Virus record (IMG/VR): IMGVR_UViG_3300013099_000017
Span: 1 to 64,000 of that record
Reading direction: 5' to 3' (one strand)
Source of the DNA: a virus
Length of the DNA: 64,000 bases
Shown: positions 21,515-62,254 of the stretch, one piece after another
Layout of the letters: each line of letters begins with the position of its first letter
How positions within the stretch are numbered: position 1 is the stretch's first letter
Program-made: the position numbers and the translations under genes
The notes under the pieces: generated by a model
Databases searched by the model: none
Told to the model about the DNA's origin: nothing
Seen by the model: only the letters and a program-made list of their open reading frames with translations

Positions 21515-21636
21515 CCTTTGGCAATTGCCTACGGCAAGGATTATTGCTCTACATAATACCCTAAGTAGATCAATCCATATCATTATTAACAGTGGAATTA
21601 TAACACTAGTTGAAATGTTGTCAACCCCTGTCAAGC
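21513..21636 (-). promoter_or_regulatory. Leftward promoter-hairpin cassette, copy 1
   Basis: On the minus strand: TTGACA (21620-21625), 16-base spacer, TATAAT (21598-21603), a near-perfect sigma-70 promoter, with a second TTGACA at 21630-21635. Downstream in the transcript lie a conserved TCTACATAATA (in + orientation) and two tiny hairpins, TTGCCTACGGCAA (21525-21537) and TGCCTTTGGCA (21513-21523), just before the uvsY operon. Bases 21581-21636 are 53/56 identical to 24311-24366. Confidence 0.8.
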
Positions 21637-24425: not shown

Positions 24426-24454
24426 TTGACAATATATCCCATTCGTGGTATATT
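24426..24454 (+). promoter_or_regulatory. Sigma-70 promoter of gene 55 with overlapping palindrome
   Basis: TTGACA (24426-24431), 17-base spacer, TATATT (24449-24454), followed by AAGGAA and the gp55 ATG at 24485. The spacer and -10 (24432-24454) are an imperfect copy of the CCCATTGTGGG palindrome family found at other promoters. Here it overlaps the polymerase-binding region, which would suit repression. Confidence 0.75.
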
Positions 24455-24484: not shown

Positions 24485-24967
24485 ATGAGTGAAAAACGGA
24501 AAACGAATATGTATGTCGATAATAAGACATTTTATGTGGAAATTTGTAAATATAAAGAAGAACAGGCAAAAGATCCTGATACAGAATTGCGATTATATCC
24601 TATATTGGGTGAGGCAATTATATTAATTGGTACACGATTATTAAATCACCGATATTTTAGGAATTACAATTCTCAGGTAAAGGATGAAATGTTAGGGGAT
24701 GGTATTGAAAATTGTCTAAGGTATTTTAATAATTTTGATACTGAGTATAAAAACCCAAATCCATTTGCTTATTTTACACAAATAACATGGTGGGCTTTTA
24801 TTAGGCGTATAAAAAAAGAATATGCAGAACAAAATGGAAAAACCAAATTTGCTGATTATATGGATAATGATGATAGTTTTTGTATAGAAAAGCATGATAA
24901 TGGTCTGCATTTTAATAATAGTATGTTAGAATTTGAAAAAAATAAAGATCAGGAGCGTTTCTATTAA
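24485..24967 (+). CDS. 55: Late-transcription sigma factor gp55
   Basis: 160 residues (T4 gp55 is 185). The N-terminus (YVDNKTFYVEICKYKEEQAK), the middle (DEMLGDGIENCLRYFNNFD, YKNPNPFAYFTQ) and WAFIRRIKKEYAE all align with T4 gp55. It directs host RNA polymerase to TATAAATA late promoters together with the clamp gp45 and co-activator gp33. Several such elements occur in this window. Driven by a consensus sigma-70 promoter, consistent with early or middle expression. Confidence 0.93.
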   Translation: MSEKRKTNMYVDNKTFYVEICKYKEEQAKDPDTELRLYPILGEAIILIGTRLLNHRYFRNYNSQVKDEMLGDGIENCLRYFNNFDTEYKNPNPFAYFTQITWWAFIRRIKKEYAEQNGKTKFADYMDNDDSFCIEKHDNGLHFNNSMLEFEKNKDQERFY

Positions 24968-25073
24968 ATTTCTTATTCCTTTATTTGGATTTTTTCTTAT
25001 ATTTTTGGCTTCCCTTGTAATTATTGGGGGAAGTATGTTAATTATATCTCTTTTGGGATATATTAATTCATAA
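24963..25073 (+). CDS. Possible small membrane peptide with non-canonical start
   Basis: A frame after AGGAG (24953-24957), with ATT as the only start candidate, encodes about 36 residues with a strongly hydrophobic core (LIPLFGFFLIFLASLVIIGG, then SMLIISLLGYINS). It overlaps the gp55 stop. The hydrophobic pattern looks protein-like, but no ATG/GTG/TTG exists in frame upstream. Low confidence. Confidence 0.22.
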   Translation: MKFLIPLFGFFLIFLASLVIIGGSMLIISLLGYINS

Positions 25074-34920: not shown

Positions 34921-35539
34921 TTTAACAGAAGGTACAACAAAAAGTAATAGCAAGAAACAGAGTAGAGTTTCCAGACCAAAATCAGCACCACCATCCCCCA
35001 CTCCCATAGAAAAATTACCTTCATTGGGTATCTTTGAAATGTTTGAAGATGTTAAATCTATGGAACGTGCTACCAAAAATTCAGCATGTTATGACATATC
35101 ATCATATTTACCCAAAGGTAAAGCAATTAATGTATGGAATTTGAATAATCGTAAACGTGATGTATATTGTAAAAATGTATCACATCTTGAAACGGAATGT
35201 ATTGTTCTTGAACCACAAGATCGTGCATTAATTCCAACTGGTGTTCAATTGGATATTCCATTAAATTATTCTTTTAGATTACATCCGAGAAGTGGATTAT
35301 CTTTAAAAGAAGGAATTAAACTTAACAATTCCGAAGGTATTATTGATAGTGATTATTATCAGCAAGTATATGTAAGTGTGTTTAATTCTTCCGGTGCAAG
35401 AGTTTATATTGAAAATGGTGATCGTATCGCTCAGGGTGAATTACAATTAAGTGTTGTACATACAACCCGAAAAATGCGTAAACCCCCACAACAAAAAACA
35501 GATCGTGTTGGTGGAATTGGTTCAACTGGTAAAAAATAA
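34907..35539 (+). CDS. Trimeric dUTPase
   Basis: 210 residues from ATG 34907 (AAGGAAG upstream); longer in-frame starts lie within regA and are less likely. Motifs I-V: SACYDISS, PRSGLSLKEG, NNSEGIIDSDY, GDRIAQGEL and DRVGGIGSTG. A 40-residue Ser/Pro-rich N-terminal extension and a short insertion (NVWNLNNRKRDVYCK) are unusual. It hydrolyses dUTP to dUMP, feeding ThyX and keeping uracil out of phage DNA. Confidence 0.9.
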   Translation: MEIGNLTEGTTKSNSKKQSRVSRPKSAPPSPTPIEKLPSLGIFEMFEDVKSMERATKNSACYDISSYLPKGKAINVWNLNNRKRDVYCKNVSHLETECIVLEPQDRALIPTGVQLDIPLNYSFRLHPRSGLSLKEGIKLNNSEGIIDSDYYQQVYVSVFNSSGARVYIENGDRIAQGELQLSVVHTTRKMRKPPQQKTDRVGGIGSTGKK

Positions 35540-35586
35540 TATACCCACAATGGGATATATACAATATTATGTGTGTCTGCTATAAT
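35539..35586 (+). promoter_or_regulatory. Promoter with CCCACAATGGG palindrome (element A)
   Basis: TATACCCACAATGGGATATA (from 35540) is a palindrome of the shared family, in the reverse reading of CCCATTGTGGG. A TATAAT lies at 35581-35586, putting the palindrome centre about -44. No good -35 hexamer is present, as expected for an activator-dependent promoter. A TATTAT at 35565 is an alternative -10. Confidence 0.6.
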
Positions 35587-45666: not shown

Positions 45667-45715
45667 TATATCCCATTGTGGGTATATAAATATATAATTA
45701 ATTATGTAATACTAT
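45666..45715 (+). promoter_or_regulatory. Promoter with CCCATTGTGGG palindrome (element B)
   Basis: TATCCCATTGTGGGTATA within 45666-45688 is a near-perfect palindrome. The -10 TACTAT is at 45710-45715, exactly 28 bases after the GGG, identical spacing to elements C and E. No -35 consensus is present. Confidence 0.7.
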
Positions 45716-46307: not shown

Positions 46308-46477
46308 TGAAAAAATTTAATGTATCATTCACTTATAGAGAAGAAGATTTTGATGATGTCTATGAAGGTGAAAGTGAAGATGATGTTATTGCTGTTATTG
46401 AGTGGAATTATGAAACGGATTCTTTTTATGATAATCACTATATAAGTAATTTAGAAATTGAGGAAATTGTAGAATGA
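46307..46477 (+). CDS. Small acidic protein (56 aa)
   Basis: Very acidic (REEDFDDVYEGESEDDVIAV), not recognised. TAATG overlap before and ATGA overlap after it. The charge pattern would suit binding to a basic partner, but nothing more can be said. Confidence 0.55.
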   Translation: MKKFNVSFTYREEDFDDVYEGESEDDVIAVIEWNYETDSFYDNHYISNLEIEEIVE

Positions 46478-46893
46478 ATTATTATTCTTTTGTTGTGGAT
46501 ACAGATTCTTATGCTGGAAATTTTGAACGTGAAATGACAGCATATGTTACGGGTGTTCTTGGTGATTGTGAAGTTGGATTAGATGAATCGGTGTTGTTTC
46601 ATGATGAAATGGATTTAGATTTAGATGAATTGATGTATCAAAAACCAAATGAACAAGGTACTCTTAGACCATGTGCGATTGAAAATACAGGGATAGAAAT
46701 ATATGGTGGTGTTGCTATATATTTCTATGAAGATCCATGTGCATATCTTGATATGTTAAAAGAGCGTTCATTGGAATATGCTAAAAAGAATAACATTCAA
46801 ATATTTAGTTTTAGAGTTCAATATATTGAGGAAAGTATCAAAATTACAGAAATTGAATATGAATCATGTAAGGATAAATCATGGAACATTTAA
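46474..46893 (+). CDS. Acidic early protein (139 aa)
   Basis: Not recognised. MNYYSFVVDTDSYAGNFERE start, acidic DEMDLDLDELMYQ in the middle, and YEDPCAYLDMLKERSLEYAK. Similar proteins with an FERE..AYVTG start occur in other T4-like phages, from memory of the family. Ends just before FNR-like box 1. Confidence 0.55.
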   Translation: MNYYSFVVDTDSYAGNFEREMTAYVTGVLGDCEVGLDESVLFHDEMDLDLDELMYQKPNEQGTLRPCAIENTGIEIYGGVAIYFYEDPCAYLDMLKERSLEYAKKNNIQIFSFRVQYIEESIKITEIEYESCKDKSWNI

Positions 46894-46934
46894 TTGATTT
46901 AGATCAATGAAATTATATTCCAATGTGATATAGT
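46894..46934 (+). promoter_or_regulatory. Promoter with FNR-like box 1
   Basis: TTGATTTAGATCAA (46894-46907) fits the FNR/ANR consensus TTGATnnnnATCAA. The -10 TATAGT is at 46929-46934, 21 bases after the box, so the box centre is near -41, the class II activator position. No -35 hexamer. Followed by the shared leader hairpin at 46955-46967. Confidence 0.65.
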
Positions 46935-46973
46935 ATATCTGTAATTAAGAGAAACTTCCAAAAGGAAAATACA

Positions 46974-47339
46974 ATGAGAATGACAGAACAAGTTATTGAT
47001 GATCTGATTGAAAAAATGCCAAGTGGTTCCGGTATTGATTGTGATTATAGTTGGACAAAATCAAATGGTAAATTAATCCTTCATAACTCATTTCATAATA
47101 TGAATGATGATGGTTATTATGATGGTTATTCCGAGTTTAAAGTTCATTTAATTTTGAAAGATGATGGGGAATGGATTTTAGATAAAATTCGTTTTGCCAA
47201 AAGTATTACAGATCCCTCCACTTACAGAAAATATTCAAATTATATATTACTTGATTATCTTTACGATACTTATATATGGAATATTGAAGAACGTAATTTG
47301 AAAGTTGGGGATTTTAATAATGCAATGGTAGATTTCTAA
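46974..47339 (+). CDS. Early protein, unknown function (121 aa)
   Basis: Not recognised. Start set by the shared leader; ATG 46974 is followed by a second ATG two codons on. Contains GYSEFKVHLILKDDGEWILD, a beta pattern, and an aromatic C-terminal half. TAATG overlap with the next gene. Confidence 0.6.
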   Translation: MRMTEQVIDDLIEKMPSGSGIDCDYSWTKSNGKLILHNSFHNMNDDGYYDGYSEFKVHLILKDDGEWILDKIRFAKSITDPSTYRKYSNYILLDYLYDTYIWNIEERNLKVGDFNNAMVDF

Positions 47340-47635
47340 TGATTTTAGATGCTGATTATAATTATGGTGGTTTATTTGATTTTGTTTCTACTGCATTTCC
47401 TGAATATAAGAAAAATTCAAAATGGGGAAAACATAAAAGACGTTATGTTGAAATTTTGGAAATGAAATTCAAACATGATATGAATTTTGAAGAAATTGGT
47501 AATGAATTAATGAATTATCAAACTGGTAAAGTTGGTGTTTCATCAACAGCAGTAAGGGATTTATATAACAAAGCATTACGTTTATTAAAATCAAAAGGCA
47601 CAATACAAGAATTAAACATTGATAATTATATTTAA
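47339..47635 (+). CDS. Small sigma-region-4-like helix-turn-helix protein
   Basis: 98 residues. RYVEILEMKFKHDMNFEEIG, then GVSSTAVRDLYNKALRLLKS, matches the pattern of sigma-70 region 4.2 (R.ILELRF...MTLEEIG....GVS...VR.I...AL..L). The insert between helices is longer than usual. It could bind promoter DNA or RNA polymerase. It is the best visible candidate in this window for a phage transcription regulator besides gp55. Confidence 0.5.
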   Translation: MILDADYNYGGLFDFVSTAFPEYKKNSKWGKHKRRYVEILEMKFKHDMNFEEIGNELMNYQTGKVGVSSTAVRDLYNKALRLLKSKGTIQELNIDNYI

Positions 47636-47647
47636 TTCTGTTATTAT
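47619..47647 (+). promoter_or_regulatory. Sigma-70 promoter
   Basis: TTGATA (47619-47624), 17-base spacer, TATTAT (47642-47647), overlapping the end of the HTH gene. Next gene starts at 47679 after AAAGGAAA. Confidence 0.5.
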
Positions 47648-47678
47648 ATAATCTAACTTATCCATTAAAGGAAACAAA

Positions 47679-48086
47679 ATGTCAAACTTTAAAAAATCTG
47701 ATGCAGTTCAATCATTAAAAAATTTAAAACCATTTGTTCCAGCTTTTCAGTTATCTATTTTAGCAGGACTTATTGATGGTGAAGAAGGTCAATATTTTAT
47801 TGATACTGTTGTTGAATTGGATTATTTAATTCAACAAATGCCAAAAACTTATGAACAGGATGGAAAGGGTGATCAAGCTGTTGCTTATTTACATTATTTC
47901 ATGGGTGGTATGGATTGGTACATTACTGAAAAAGATATGGAAGATGAACAGTTTCAAGCCTTTGGTTTAGCTAATCTTGGTTATGGTGCTGAACTTGGTT
48001 ATATTTCTATTGAAGAACTAAAAGCAAATAATATTGAAATTGATTTACATTTTACACCAACAATGGTTGGCAATTTAAAGAAATAG
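47679..48086 (+). CDS. DUF2958-like protein
   Basis: 135 residues. MPKTYEQDGKGDQAVAYLHY, DWYITEKDME, FQAFGLANLGYGAELGYISI and the following acidic end match the widespread phage/plasmid family of DUF2958 type. Function unknown; the family often sits in antirestriction or conjugation-associated regions. Overlaps the next promoter region. Confidence 0.6.
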   Translation: MSNFKKSDAVQSLKNLKPFVPAFQLSILAGLIDGEEGQYFIDTVVELDYLIQQMPKTYEQDGKGDQAVAYLHYFMGGMDWYITEKDMEDEQFQAFGLANLGYGAELGYISIEELKANNIEIDLHFTPTMVGNLKK

Positions 48087-48095
48087 TGTTATACT
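48067..48095 (+). promoter_or_regulatory. Extended -10 sigma-70 promoter
   Basis: TTGGCA (48067-48072), 17-base spacer ending TGT, TATACT (48090-48095). It overlaps the end of the DUF2958-like gene and lies 33 bases before the gene at 48128. Confidence 0.6.
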
Positions 48096-48127
48096 TGTAT
48101 TTTATCACTTCACAGAAGGAAAACAAA

Positions 48128-48391
48128 ATGTCCGATACTTATGACCAAGCTGAAAAAGCTATGAGAGATTTATTAGATGCTTCTAATGTTATGGGGTCTA
48201 ATGATGATATTGCTCAGGCTATTTCAAACGTGCTATTGAGAGAGCATAGAACGCTACAACAAGCATTTTTTCGTTCCTTTAAACAAGCTATGGATGGTTA
48301 TTCTAAAGGTGGCTCAGATGGTCGGAATGAGGGTGCTATTCAATTAGCAAAAGAAATCCATAACTCTGATGTTTATTTACCATTTGTTTAG
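48128..48391 (+). CDS. Small helical protein (87 aa)
   Basis: Start ATG 48128 after AGAAGGAAAAC. Not recognised. Helical (YDQAEKAMRDLLDASNVMGS) with a central AFFRSFKQAMDGYSKGG and a terminal DVYLPFV. Confidence 0.55.
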   Translation: MSDTYDQAEKAMRDLLDASNVMGSNDDIAQAISNVLLREHRTLQQAFFRSFKQAMDGYSKGGSDGRNEGAIQLAKEIHNSDVYLPFV

Positions 48392-48402
48392 GGAATATGA
48401 TT

Positions 48403-48556
48403 ATGTATATTGTTCGTGATTTGGAAACGGGTCGTTATTTGATTAACCTATGATACAGTTGATGAAATTGAGAAAATTATCTTATCGTGGGATCATACTT
48501 GGCATGATTTTGAAGTTGTTAAATTAATTGTACATTCAAGAACAAACAGATCTTGA
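48403..48556 (+). pseudogene. Frameshifted small gene (YIVRDLETGRY type)
   Basis: Frame 1 gives MYIVRDLETGRYLINL then a stop. One base later a second frame continues YDTVDEIEKIILSWDHTWHD and ends in SRTNRS. Read together they look like one protein of about 50 residues interrupted by a single extra base near 48450. A gene with a similar start and a frameshift at the same point is at 54588. Sequencing error or programmed frameshift are alternatives. Confidence 0.5.
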
Positions 48557-48599
48557 TCTAGATCAATGTAATTTTGGATAAATTTTAATATAATATAAT
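48553..48599 (+). promoter_or_regulatory. Promoter with FNR-like box 2
   Basis: TTGATCTAGATCAA (48553-48566), a perfect palindrome, with TATAAT at 48589-48594 (22 bases after the box, centre about -41.5) and a second TATAAT at 48594-48599. The shared leader hairpin follows at 48615-48627. Confidence 0.7.
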
Positions 48600-48632
48600 C
48601 TGAATTGAGAAAAACTTCCAAAAGGAAATCCA

Positions 48633-48785
48633 ATGAACTTATTTGAATTAGACCAAATCATCAATCAACTGATTGAAGAAAATGATCCAAGTAATAATGA
48701 ATTAATTTCGTTTTATTACAGAAAACGTGATGAACTTGTTGTTGTCCTTTCTAAAAAAATTAATGAGATAATTAAAAATGCCTAA
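48633..48785 (+). CDS. Small protein (50 aa)
   Basis: Helical MNLFELDQIINQLIEEND start, not recognised. The ATG sits behind the shared leader hairpin. Overlaps the next gene by eight bases. Confidence 0.55.
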   Translation: MNLFELDQIINQLIEENDPSNNELISFYYRKRDELVVVLSKKINEIIKNA

Positions 48786-49170
48786 TGTTAATATTACCGT
48801 GTATCATGTGATTGTTGGTGAACTTAATGTTGCCAATTGGAAATTAATTCGTGAATTGGCTTATAAAGCTGAGGACAATAAAAAAAGATTAACTGATATG
48901 TTTATCAATGGTGATTATTTTACTGCCGTTGCAGATATTACTAATTCTACATTAGATGATGCTTATCGTTTAACCAATAGCATCGAAGAAGGTTGGTGGA
49001 AAAATGAAGAAGTTACCCCACTATTTAAAGCAAGTGGTGCAAAGTCAACTGATATCGGTGATATAATGATGGTTGAAATTCCACTTGAAGCAAAAACAGA
49101 AAATGATGCAATCGCTCACTATGAATTATATGTAGTTGCTCCGATTGGTTTTGTTAAAATTGATGGATAA
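48778..49170 (+). CDS. Early protein, unknown function (130 aa)
   Basis: Not recognised. ITVYHVIVGELNVANWKLIR and GDIMMVEIPLEAKTENDAIA suggest an alpha/beta fold; a Trp-rich EEGWWKNEE lies in the middle. Overlaps the 50-aa gene. Confidence 0.55.
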   Translation: MPNVNITVYHVIVGELNVANWKLIRELAYKAEDNKKRLTDMFINGDYFTAVADITNSTLDDAYRLTNSIEEGWWKNEEVTPLFKASGAKSTDIGDIMMVEIPLEAKTENDAIAHYELYVVAPIGFVKIDG

Positions 49171-49175
49171 TAATT

Positions 49176-49352
49176 ATGTTAAGATTAAAAGTTAAAGCAG
49201 AGGGCGATACTGAACAAGATTTGGTTAATGCTCTCGAAGAAGTAATTCGTTTAGTTGAAATTGGCAACCGTGAAGGATTTGATATGAATACTTCCGGTGA
49301 GTTCAATTTTGAACTTGAAGAAGATGATCTATTATATTTTCCGGAAGCATAA
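49176..49352 (+). CDS. Small acidic protein (58 aa)
   Basis: MLRLKVKAEGDTEQDLVNAL start and FNFELEEDDLLYFPEA end; not recognised. No strong ribosome-binding site; four bases after the previous stop. Confidence 0.5.
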   Translation: MLRLKVKAEGDTEQDLVNALEEVIRLVEIGNREGFDMNTSGEFNFELEEDDLLYFPEA

Positions 49353-49359
49353 TGAAAGA

Positions 49360-49390
49360 TTGGTAATTTTATTTAATTGTGTTATACTAT
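49360..49390 (+). promoter_or_regulatory. Weak promoter with TGT-TATACT
   Basis: Extended -10 TGTTATACT (TATACT at 49385-49390) after the 58-aa gene. The best -35, TTGGTA at 49360, has a 19-base spacer. Resembles the promoter at 48067. Confidence 0.35.
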
Positions 49391-49444
49391 GTACATATTA
49401 AGAACGGAAATTAATAAAACATGAAAAGGCTAAAGTTGAATCCT

Positions 49445-49576
49445 ATGAAAAATCCAAGAAACCCATATTACAATCATCCTTTGATGTCTAAGTCTCATGC
49501 TCATGTAAAATCTGAGAAAGCTAAAAGACGTAAAAACAAGGTTGATTTAAATAAATCTGTTGAGCTGGAGAAATAA
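49445..49576 (+). CDS. Small basic protein (about 43 aa)
   Basis: Very basic: MKNPRNPYYNHPLMSKSHAH followed by a KAKRRKNK stretch. An alternative start slightly upstream would add about eight residues; the true N-terminus is uncertain. Resembles short basic phage peptides seen elsewhere in T4-like genomes and the 47-aa protein at 63597. Possible nucleic-acid binder. Confidence 0.5.
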   Translation: MKNPRNPYYNHPLMSKSHAHVKSEKAKRRKNKVDLNKSVELEK

Positions 49577-49577
49577 A

Positions 49578-49907
49578 ATGTTAGAATATGGTGATAGATA
49601 TATCTTAATTGAACATGGTGATGTATTTGCAGGTGGTTGGGATCAATTAATTGATTGTTTTGGAATTGATTCTGAAACACTTGAAGAATTTTGTCGTTTC
49701 CATGATTACACATATACACTCAGTTTATATAATTCTGCCGATAAACTTAATAACGAATTACATAAGTTGTACAAGTATTTGAGCCAACCAAATGAAATTG
49801 TTGATTCCAGCAACAAAGATTATGATGATGGAATTGATACCGGATTTGAACATATTGCTGAAAAACTAAAAGTGATTATTGAAAGTTTTGAAAAGGATAC
49901 TTATTAA
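49578..49907 (+). CDS. Early protein, unknown function (109 aa)
   Basis: Start ATG 49578 with GGAG upstream. Not recognised. GDRYILIEHGDVFAGGWDQL start and DDGIDTGFEHIAEKLKVII near the end; a similar D.GxDxGRE.xAxxL ending is in the 62-aa protein at 51558. Confidence 0.6.
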   Translation: MLEYGDRYILIEHGDVFAGGWDQLIDCFGIDSETLEEFCRFHDYTYTLSLYNSADKLNNELHKLYKYLSQPNEIVDSSNKDYDDGIDTGFEHIAEKLKVIIESFEKDTY

Positions 49908-50099
49908 ATGAATATTGGATCAAAGGTTTTAATTATTGGTGGTAATCATACAGGTGAATTTGGTACATATCTTTATCATAGTCATGATAGTGGTTATTAT
50001 GTGCCATTTGTTCTCTTGCCTGATGATCCTATTGATAAGTATTGTGGTGAACGTTTAAATATGAACTATCGTTGTGTATATGGTCGAGCAAGAAAATGA
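49908..50099 (+). CDS. KOW/SH3-like small protein
   Basis: 63 residues. GSKVLIIGGNHTGEFGTYL has the KOW-type start (G-x-x-V-x-I-x-x-G-x-x-x-G). Such barrels bind RNA, ribosomes or RNA polymerase; this is suggestive only. The next promoter region begins at its stop. Confidence 0.5.
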   Translation: MNIGSKVLIIGGNHTGEFGTYLYHSHDSGYYVPFVLLPDDPIDKYCGERLNMNYRCVYGRARK

Positions 50100-50148
50100 T
50101 ATATCCCATTGTGGGTATATACTCCATTGTTAAATTATGAGATACTAT
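50099..50148 (+). promoter_or_regulatory. Promoter with CCCATTGTGGG palindrome (element C)
   Basis: TATCCCATTGTGGGTATA within 50099-50121; TACTAT at 50143-50148, 28 bases after GGG, the same as B and E. A GC-rich hairpin GGGGAA-AGG-TTCCCC (50160-50174) near the transcript 5' end and the shared leader (50186-50198) follow. Confidence 0.7.
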
Positions 50149-50205
50149 ACTTGTGGTGAGGGGAAAGGTTCCCCAATTAGATAAACTTCCAAAAGGAAAT
50201 TCAAA

Positions 50206-50562
50206 ATGGCTTATATTAGCAACGAAGATGTTAAAGAAATCAGAAACAATATTAAGAAAGCATTTCCAATTAAAGAAGGTTGGAAATTTTCAATCAGAAG
50301 GCTTAATCACAGTGAAGTAAATGTAGCCATTATGCAATCACCAAAATCACACGGCTTTGAAGGTGATGAACAAGTTAATCAATATTATATTGATGAACAT
50401 TATAAAGATTTGCCATTACAAAGAGAAATGTTGTCTAAACTTAATGACATCATTAAAGAAAAATGGTGGGATGAATCAGATTCTCAGAGTGATTATTTCC
50501 ATTGTGCTTATTACTATACAATCCATATCGGTAAATGGAATAAGGATTGTGTTTCTGTTTAA
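50206..50562 (+). CDS. Early protein resembling polyvalent-protein-associated small domains
   Basis: 118 residues. SNEDVKEIRNNIKKAFPIKE, then WKFSIRRLNHSEVNVAIMQS, and a late YYYTIHIGKWNKD resemble a small domain widespread in bacteria and mobile elements (a VxxIRxxLKxxFPxxKFSVR start). Its function is unknown. Expressed from palindromic promoter C. Confidence 0.55.
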   Translation: MAYISNEDVKEIRNNIKKAFPIKEGWKFSIRRLNHSEVNVAIMQSPKSHGFEGDEQVNQYYIDEHYKDLPLQREMLSKLNDIIKEKWWDESDSQSDYFHCAYYYTIHIGKWNKDCVSV

Positions 50563-50603
50563 TTGATCTAGATCAATGTATTTTTTCTCAATCCTGATAT
50601 ACT
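50563..50603 (+). promoter_or_regulatory. Promoter with FNR-like box 3
   Basis: TTGATCTAGATCAA (50563-50576) with TATACT at 50598-50603, 21 bases after the box. Same arrangement as boxes 1 and 2. Shared leader hairpin at 50631-50643. Confidence 0.7.
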
Positions 50604-50649
50604 GTATTTGTGATTGAGAAATAAGATAAACTTCCAAAAGGAAATCAAA

Positions 50650-50919
50650 ATGAGTAATTTTAATTCTTCCGTTATAAAAGAAATCGCTAATTGTACCGAA
50701 TATAATGATCATTGTCGGGCATTGATATTAGCATCCAAAATGTTGGGATATAGCAAACTTGAACAAGTTTTTACAAAAGTTGGCGAAATAGCAAACATTG
50801 AAGGTGGTTATGATTCAAAATTGATGGAATATCGTTATTCCCGATATCAAGAGTTAATGCTTCTTGCAGAAAATGACTTAACTGGTTTACAATTTCAAAA
50901 TCTTTATGGAGCATTTTAA
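50650..50919 (+). CDS. Early helical protein (89 aa)
   Basis: Start ATG 50650 set by the leader. Not recognised. MSNFNSSVIKEIANCTEYND start; helical throughout (GYSKLEQVFTKVGEIANIEG). The next gene follows directly. Confidence 0.55.
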   Translation: MSNFNSSVIKEIANCTEYNDHCRALILASKMLGYSKLEQVFTKVGEIANIEGGYDSKLMEYRYSRYQELMLLAENDLTGLQFQNLYGAF

Positions 50920-51207
50920 ATGTATCAATCCACTATAACCAACACAAGAGATTTGAAAGTTACAATTTCAAAAGATAACGATATTCGGTTTAAAGTTCCG
51001 GAAGATAAACAGGATTTATATGATCTTGATTTAATCGCTGATAAATTGATGGAATATCCTGTTATTGTCGAATCAACATTAACACTCAGGGGTAAATTGG
51101 ACAAACATAAAAAAGTGTCATTAACTACTCAAAATGGTAGTAAAGCAAACAGAAAACGCAATCGTGTTTATACTGTTTTCTTTGAAGATGATGAAATTTA
51201 TGTCTGA
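50920..51207 (+). CDS. Early protein, unknown function (95 aa)
   Basis: Not recognised. Beta-rich first half (TRDLKVTISKDNDIRFKVPE), basic patch SKANRKRNRVYTVFF near the end. Abuts the preceding gene. Confidence 0.55.
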   Translation: MYQSTITNTRDLKVTISKDNDIRFKVPEDKQDLYDLDLIADKLMEYPVIVESTLTLRGKLDKHKKVSLTTQNGSKANRKRNRVYTVFFEDDEIYV

Positions 51208-53402: not shown

Positions 53403-53589
53403 AAAAGTTTTGATGGATGTAAATGGTTTATATTATTGTGGTACACATGATAATAAAATTATATGGGATGATCATCCTGATTCTGCTACCGATATTAGAA
53501 ATTCCAATTGGGATTTTTATGGATGGGAAGTTGATATATTGGATAAAATGGTTTTAGAAGTTAAAGAATATGTGGAGTATTTTTCATGA
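53392..53589 (+). CDS. Small protein (65 aa), unknown function
   Basis: Start at one of two adjacent ATGs (53389/53392). Not recognised. Trp-rich middle (NWDFYGWEVDILDK). ATGA overlap with the next gene. Confidence 0.5.
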   Translation: MKIKKVLMDVNGLYYCGTHDNKIIWDDHPDSATDIRNSNWDFYGWEVDILDKMVLEVKEYVEYFS

Positions 53590-53843
53590 GTAAGTTCAAT
53601 GAACGTAAAAGGCGTAAAATTGAATTTTTATGTGATTTAAATAATGTATTAATAAAACATGATGCAGAAATCATTGCAGATATTCAATCAACAAATGGTG
53701 GTATGGATGATGGGATGTTTATGTATTTCGATTTAAATCAGGGGGATTATTGTCAATTTGATCAAGAATTGGATCATGGGAATGTTGAATGTCGCATTGA
53801 TTCTAATACAATTTACAATATATTAAATAGATTAAATAATTAA
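53586..53843 (+). CDS. Small protein (85 aa), distant paralog of 52824
   Basis: Basic N-terminus (MSKFNERKRRKIEFLCDLNN), then acidic DLNQGDYCQFDQELDHGNVE. See the paralog at 52824. Its stop lies at the edge of palindromic element D. Confidence 0.55.
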   Translation: MSKFNERKRRKIEFLCDLNNVLIKHDAEIIADIQSTNGGMDDGMFMYFDLNQGDYCQFDQELDHGNVECRIDSNTIYNILNRLNN

Positions 53844-53882
53844 TATATACCCACAATGGGATATATACGAAAATGATATAAT
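53843..53882 (+). promoter_or_regulatory. Promoter with CCCACAATGGG palindrome (element D)
   Basis: TATACCCACAATGGGATATA within 53843-53867; TATAAT at 53877-53882, only 17 bases after GGG. That is 11 bases (one helical turn) closer than in B, C and E, so the element would face the same side of the DNA. Confidence 0.65.
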
Positions 53883-62205: not shown

Positions 62206-62254
62206 AATATCCCATTGTGAGTATATACATTTATTAACTAATAAACGATACTAT
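62206..62254 (+). promoter_or_regulatory. Promoter with CCCATTGTGAG palindrome (element E)
   Basis: TATCCCATTGTGAGTATA within 62206-62227, one base off the palindrome, with TACTAT at 62249-62254, 28 bases after it, as in B and C. The -10 overlaps a hairpin AAACGATA/TATCGTTT (62243-62265). The leader TTTTCAAAAGGAAA is a degenerate copy of the shared hairpin. Confidence 0.65.

Follow-up and report, generated by a model that had tools for sequence, protein, structure and literature searches.

The DNA considered here is the first 64 kb (the window) of the 144,243-base virus record IMGVR_UViG_3300013099_000017, and our subject is a set of three promoters in it that carry boxes of the FNR/ANR type, matching TTGATNNNNATCAA. 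Box 1, TTGATTTAGATCAA (46894..46907, + strand), starts directly past the stop codon of the gene at 46474-46893 and is followed, after a gap of 21 bases, by an extended -10, TGA-TATAGT (46926..46934, +; hexamer 46929-46934). Boxes 2 and 3 share the sequence TTGATCTAGATCAA. Box 2 (48553..48566, +) lies 22 bases before TATAAT (48589..48594, +), which is preceded by TAA, not TGA; box 3 (50563..50576, +), again directly past a stop codon, that of the gene at 50206-50562, lies 21 bases before the extended -10 TGA-TATACT (50595..50603, +; hexamer 50598-50603). Each promoter leads into a common leader, CTTCCAAAAGGAA, which includes a Shine-Dalgarno sequence (46955..46967, 48615..48627, and 50631..50643, all +).

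An earlier sequence-only reading of this DNA had described the boxes and their 21- to 22-base gaps, and had assigned them to the class II position of FNR-family activators, near -41.5; all of this is borne out. The box centers fall 28.5 to 29.5 bp 5′ of the first -10 base, or at about -40.5 to -41.5, a placement computed from the -10 hexamer, since the start of transcription is itself a prediction. Reading the -35 region of the three window promoters at spacers of 15 to 19 gave no TTGACA-like hexamer, and by their sequence the box promoters look activator dependent.

Across the whole record, a scan for the box and its spacing returned eight exact boxes, six of them correctly spaced and located at a gene end or between genes: the three above and three more, at 77281, 93723, and 98981. 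All six lie on one strand, with the core NTAG in each and a gap to the -10 of 21 to 22 bp, and the -10 is TGA extended in five of the six. Repeated use had been taken to make chance unlikely, a view that we share for a somewhat different reason. The number of boxes is modestly unusual (3 in the window against 0.76 expected, with three or more reached in 2 of 100 shuffles) and would be weak evidence alone; placement is decisive. When all 1,024 five-base arms W were compared by counting W-N4-W′ with a -10 at a gap of 21 or 22, TTGAT scored 6 in the record and the next best arm scored 1, while TTGAT scored 0 in 20 Markov genomes. It is because this placement is so unusual that the evidence for the boxes is strong.

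The operons behind the boxes encode small proteins. That of box 1 (46974..47635, +) has a gene for a 121-amino-acid (or 119-amino-acid) protein of unknown function, followed by one for a 98-amino-acid protein (47339-47635). The latter gave a weak Sigma70_r4 match (E value of 5e-4, under the Pfam cut-off); no credible match was found when PDB sequences were searched with it, and its AlphaFold model, made without an alignment, is not usable (predicted local distance difference test score of 48). The box 2 operon (48633..49352, +) encodes small proteins of unknown function, as does that of box 3 (50650..51207, +), with proteins of 89 and 95 amino acids. Two GATC sites lie within the full box TTGATCTAGATCAA, and a Dam-type adenine methyltransferase is among the proteins encoded by the record (PF05869 match, at about 80-110 kb; alignment A3), so that methylation could modulate binding.

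A second palindrome in the same promoter slot

The FNR-type promoters have a counterpart in a larger second class of about 25 members, in which a near-palindrome, TATATCCCATTGTGGGTATATA (the CCC box), occupies the slot of the FNR-type box. These promoters share the -10 and, for the most part, the leader, AACTTCCAAAAGGAAA. From the -10 onward, members of the two classes are near copies of each other: the CCC promoter at 50100 (50138-50208) and the FNR-type promoter at 93723 (93756-93825) share about 89% identity over 71 bp. The CCC box lies 19 bp before GATAMT in most copies, the gap being 20 to 21 bp if the box is reversed. Copies in the window are found in the promoter of gene 45754 (45667..45688, +) and, each 19 bp before GATACT, at 50100..50121 and 62206..62227 (both +); reversed copies lie after the gene at 53586-53843 (53844..53865, -) and 21 bp before TATAAT (35538..35559, -). 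Given a common -10 and leader and differing palindromes in one slot, the -35 slot can be seen as a swappable activator site, and the FNR-type boxes have the look of a module that has replaced the activator site belonging to the phage itself. The CCC-box 23-mer was not found in GTDB genomes, as would suit a phage-made factor, and presumably the CCC palindrome serves one.

Variants of the CCC box (TATATCTCTTTTGGGATATAT) occur at 25043-25064 in the window and at 71378-71399 and 88209-88230 of the record. Folded as RNA, the variant at 71378 gives a very strong hairpin (-17.8 kcal/mol), suggesting that the CCC element may double as RNA structure. The late sigma factor gene (24485-24967) also has a CCC-like palindrome (24426-24454) in its promoter, in the spacer between -35 and -10. 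This palindrome is kept in L040, a relative 93-96% identical, and a protein bound to it would repress the promoter.

A third class consists of four near-identical consensus sigma-70 promoters, TTGACA N16 TATAAT (CTTGACAGNNNTTGACAANNTTTCAACTAGTGNTATAATTCCACTG), at 21624 (-) and 24355 (-) in the window and at 87448 (+) and 134704 (+) in the record. Two of the four are also present in L040. Needing no activator, these are likely, on sequence grounds, to be the early promoters. The proposal that the box promoters drive early transcription does not fare well by comparison: these separate consensus promoters fit that role better than do promoters that appear to depend on an activator.

The same layout in other phages

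The assignment of the boxes as FNR/ANR-type sites at the class II position is strengthened by unrelated phages in which box and spacing recur. The matches listed for a broad first scan of IMG/VR were mostly coding. A scan for the box with an extended -10 yielded a different phage (G001; 36% guanine plus cytosine [GC], 48.7 kb) with five boxes, each 21 to 22 bp from a -10. In a refined scan for TTGATCNAGATCAA with TATAMT, 106 stretches had a gap of 20 to 23, compared to 16 at a gap of 30 to 33, our spacing control. The refined pattern was picked after the first results, and thus it is this control that bears the weight. We read 81 of the cases. About 30 came from coding regions, most of them belonging to a single gene family; these are uninformative and were not taken as promoters. 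Outside long open frames were 48, the gap being 22 in 34 of these and 21 in 13; the spacing control gave eight such cases, in about four contexts. The noncoding cases represent about eight lineages, a large one being related to Pelagibacter phages. Members of a large marine family related to Pelagibacter phage HTVC023P (L228, L073, L172, and relatives) carry TTGATCTAGATCAA with TATAAT following after 22 bp; the site falls in an intergenic gap close to genes for ferrochelatase and a 2OG-Fe(II) oxygenase.

The best-supported outside cases are promoters of nrdD, the gene for the anaerobic (oxygen-free) ribonucleotide reductase, in enterobacterial phages, whose hosts have FNR. One IMG/VR match, L183, is related to Salmonella jumbo phage Munch and has the box in its nrdD promoter. 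When the nrdD promoters of Munch, fENko-Kae01, Hallingskeid, EJP2, and BF17 are aligned, TTGATNTAGRTCAA and TATAAT are kept 22 to 23 bp apart while the spacer between them has diverged. Among jumbo phages that infect E. coli, Salmonella, Klebsiella, or Erwinia, the box stands as a conserved island at that distance before the nrdD TATAAT. The nrdD promoter of Klebsiella phage K64-1 reads TTGATTTAAATCAA N22 TATAAT; at an equal gap, weaker sites are present in ETEC-TG and ICP1. FNR class II boxes before nrdD lie at 4132-4285 of L271 (Salmonella phage Munch) and 1103-1201 of L315 (Klebsiella K64-1). In 92.9 kb around sampled genes, eight of nine TTGATNNNNRTCAA sites were just upstream of nrdD. Phage records with NrdD number 2,826. 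The link with nrdD is frequent, not universal: the region before nrdD shows no clear box in nimi, Ah1, chee24, or Vibrio phage 1.150.O, and one that is weak or badly placed in Riker, Ro111lw, and vB_VmeM-32. Still, the pattern at these nrdD promoters is hard to explain without FNR reading phage DNA. The Salmonella nrdDG operon itself bears marked FNR boxes (PMC2892513).

Candidate readers of the boxes

By its genes, the phage of the record is a distant T4-like myovirus. Its genome has 29% GC, with genes almost all on one strand, and encodes UvsX, UvsY, a RegA-type translational regulator, a late sigma factor (gp55 type), and a late-transcription coactivator. The DNA polymerase is at most 41% identical to those of named phages, the nearest being from cyanophages, and megablast against named phages found no close relative. 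A search for relatives via the leader sequence returned the same phage and contig L037, the remaining matches being coding or unrelated coincidences. Pieces of the record occur at >99.9% identity in IMG 3300014914 and IMG 3300013103, the latter a metagenome of Guaymas Basin sediment (PMC6478937, PMC8065059); going by these matches, the phage is one that recurs in deep-sea hydrothermal sediment.

We propose, with a probability of roughly 0.66, that the boxes are class II activator sites for a host FNR/ANR-type protein, placing six operons under the host's oxygen (or nitric oxide [NO]/redox) sensor. A host protein of this type, a member of the CRP/FNR superfamily, would bind TTGATNTAGATCAA as a dimer centered near -41, stand in for the absent -35 element, and recruit host sigma-70 RNA polymerase to the extended -10. 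Six operons of small, mostly unknown genes would thereby come under the sensor, while the roughly 25 promoters with the same -10 and leader would use the private palindrome, presumably for a phage-made factor. Here, three points are inferred: FNR as the binder, activation as the effect of its binding, and oxygen as the signal.

Several known systems bear comparison. Bacterial FNR class II promoters (E. coli FNR, Pseudomonas ANR) likewise have TTGATNNNNATCAA near -41, 21 to 22 bp before a sigma-70-type -10, and lack a -35 hexamer; here, however, the promoters are those of a phage, in six copies before phage genes of unknown function, and the binder and the oxygen response are predicted. The middle promoters of T4 (a MotA box with an extended -10) similarly combine an activator box, an extended -10, and no -35 in a phage of the T4 type. 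There the MotA box is at -30, whereas here the box is near -41, palindromic, and of FNR consensus; MotA and AsiA families are not among the Pfam matches listed for the record's proteins, and we do not regard these as MotA-type middle promoters.

Some observations weigh against host FNR control in this phage. The genes downstream of the boxes show no known link to anaerobiosis. The box and class II spacing of the nrdD promoters in enterobacterial jumbo phages recall the FNR control of bacterial nrdDG, but the window's phage has the boxes and no nrdD was found in its record. Searching GTDB genomes with the private 23-mer palindrome or the DNA polymerase gave no host match. One box-bearing lineage is related to Pelagibacter phages, and these have aerobic hosts; the binder could thus be an FNR relative that answers to a different signal, or a different protein altogether.

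The sequence-only reading had also raised the possibility that the phage encodes its own regulator for the site. No CRP/FNR-family protein was found in the 144 kb: HTH_Crp_2 (PF13545) and cNMP-binding (PF00027) gave no match in the record at E values up to 1, while control genomes did give matches. This absence is not absolute, as the record may lack an end, and an unrecognized DNA-binding protein may yet be encoded. One can thus envision a phage protein unrelated to CRP/FNR that binds TTGATCTAGATCAA and activates, the likeness to an FNR box being convergent. We consider this unlikely. It would fit with the private palindrome class already in the same slot, with the weak sigma region-4 match of the small protein encoded by the box 1 operon, and with the many small phage genes of unknown function. 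It sits poorly with the same 14-mer and spacing in phages without detectable nucleotide kinship, with the box at nrdD in enterobacterial phages, a gene that the host controls via FNR (PMC2892513), and with Pfam scans of 261 record proteins, in which no helix-turn-helix regulator was found at an E value of 1e-4.

Alternatively, the host may supply a different CRP/FNR-superfamily regulator as the binder (DNR/NnrR, FixK, or an aerobic relative), with NO, a redox relay, or something else as the signal. The DNR/NnrR, FixK, and FNR families share the TTGATNNNNATCAA site, and the Pelagibacter-related lineage would be at home with such a regulator. Nevertheless, this appears rather improbable, given that the nrdD cases come from hosts in which FNR is the known reader and that the window contains nothing pointing to NO genes in particular. 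A host FNR/ANR-type protein is the simplest binder and the likely one.

It is very improbable that the palindromes are repressor operators or gene-end RNA hairpins, even though several begin right at the preceding gene's stop codon and some CCC-class variants form strong RNA hairpins. The FNR-type box folds weakly as RNA (-2.8 kcal/mol, z of -1.0), its distance to the -10 is fixed within 1 bp, and a repressor would have little to repress at promoters without a -35. Chance matches in an AT-rich genome, compatible as they are with the occasional shuffle that yields three boxes, are refuted by the placement test and can be dismissed.

Six promoters have an FNR-type site at activating distance, so the oxygen or redox state of the host probably governs part of what the phage expresses. 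The link that the sequence-only reading drew between these promoters and that state is plausible. The usual view is that phage promoters respond to phage factors or to plain host sigma-70 polymerase, and a full-text search of open-licence literature found no report of FNR-dependent phage promoters. We would give even odds to a broader proposal: that phages widely use the host oxygen sensor as an activator, with this phage running six operons via host FNR and about 25 via a private factor through interchangeable -35-slot boxes, and with many phage nrdD genes under a host-FNR class II promoter. If true, infection could adjust to anoxia through a phage regulon wired to the host oxygen sensor, and FNR gating would explain why some phage genes appear silent in aerated cultures.
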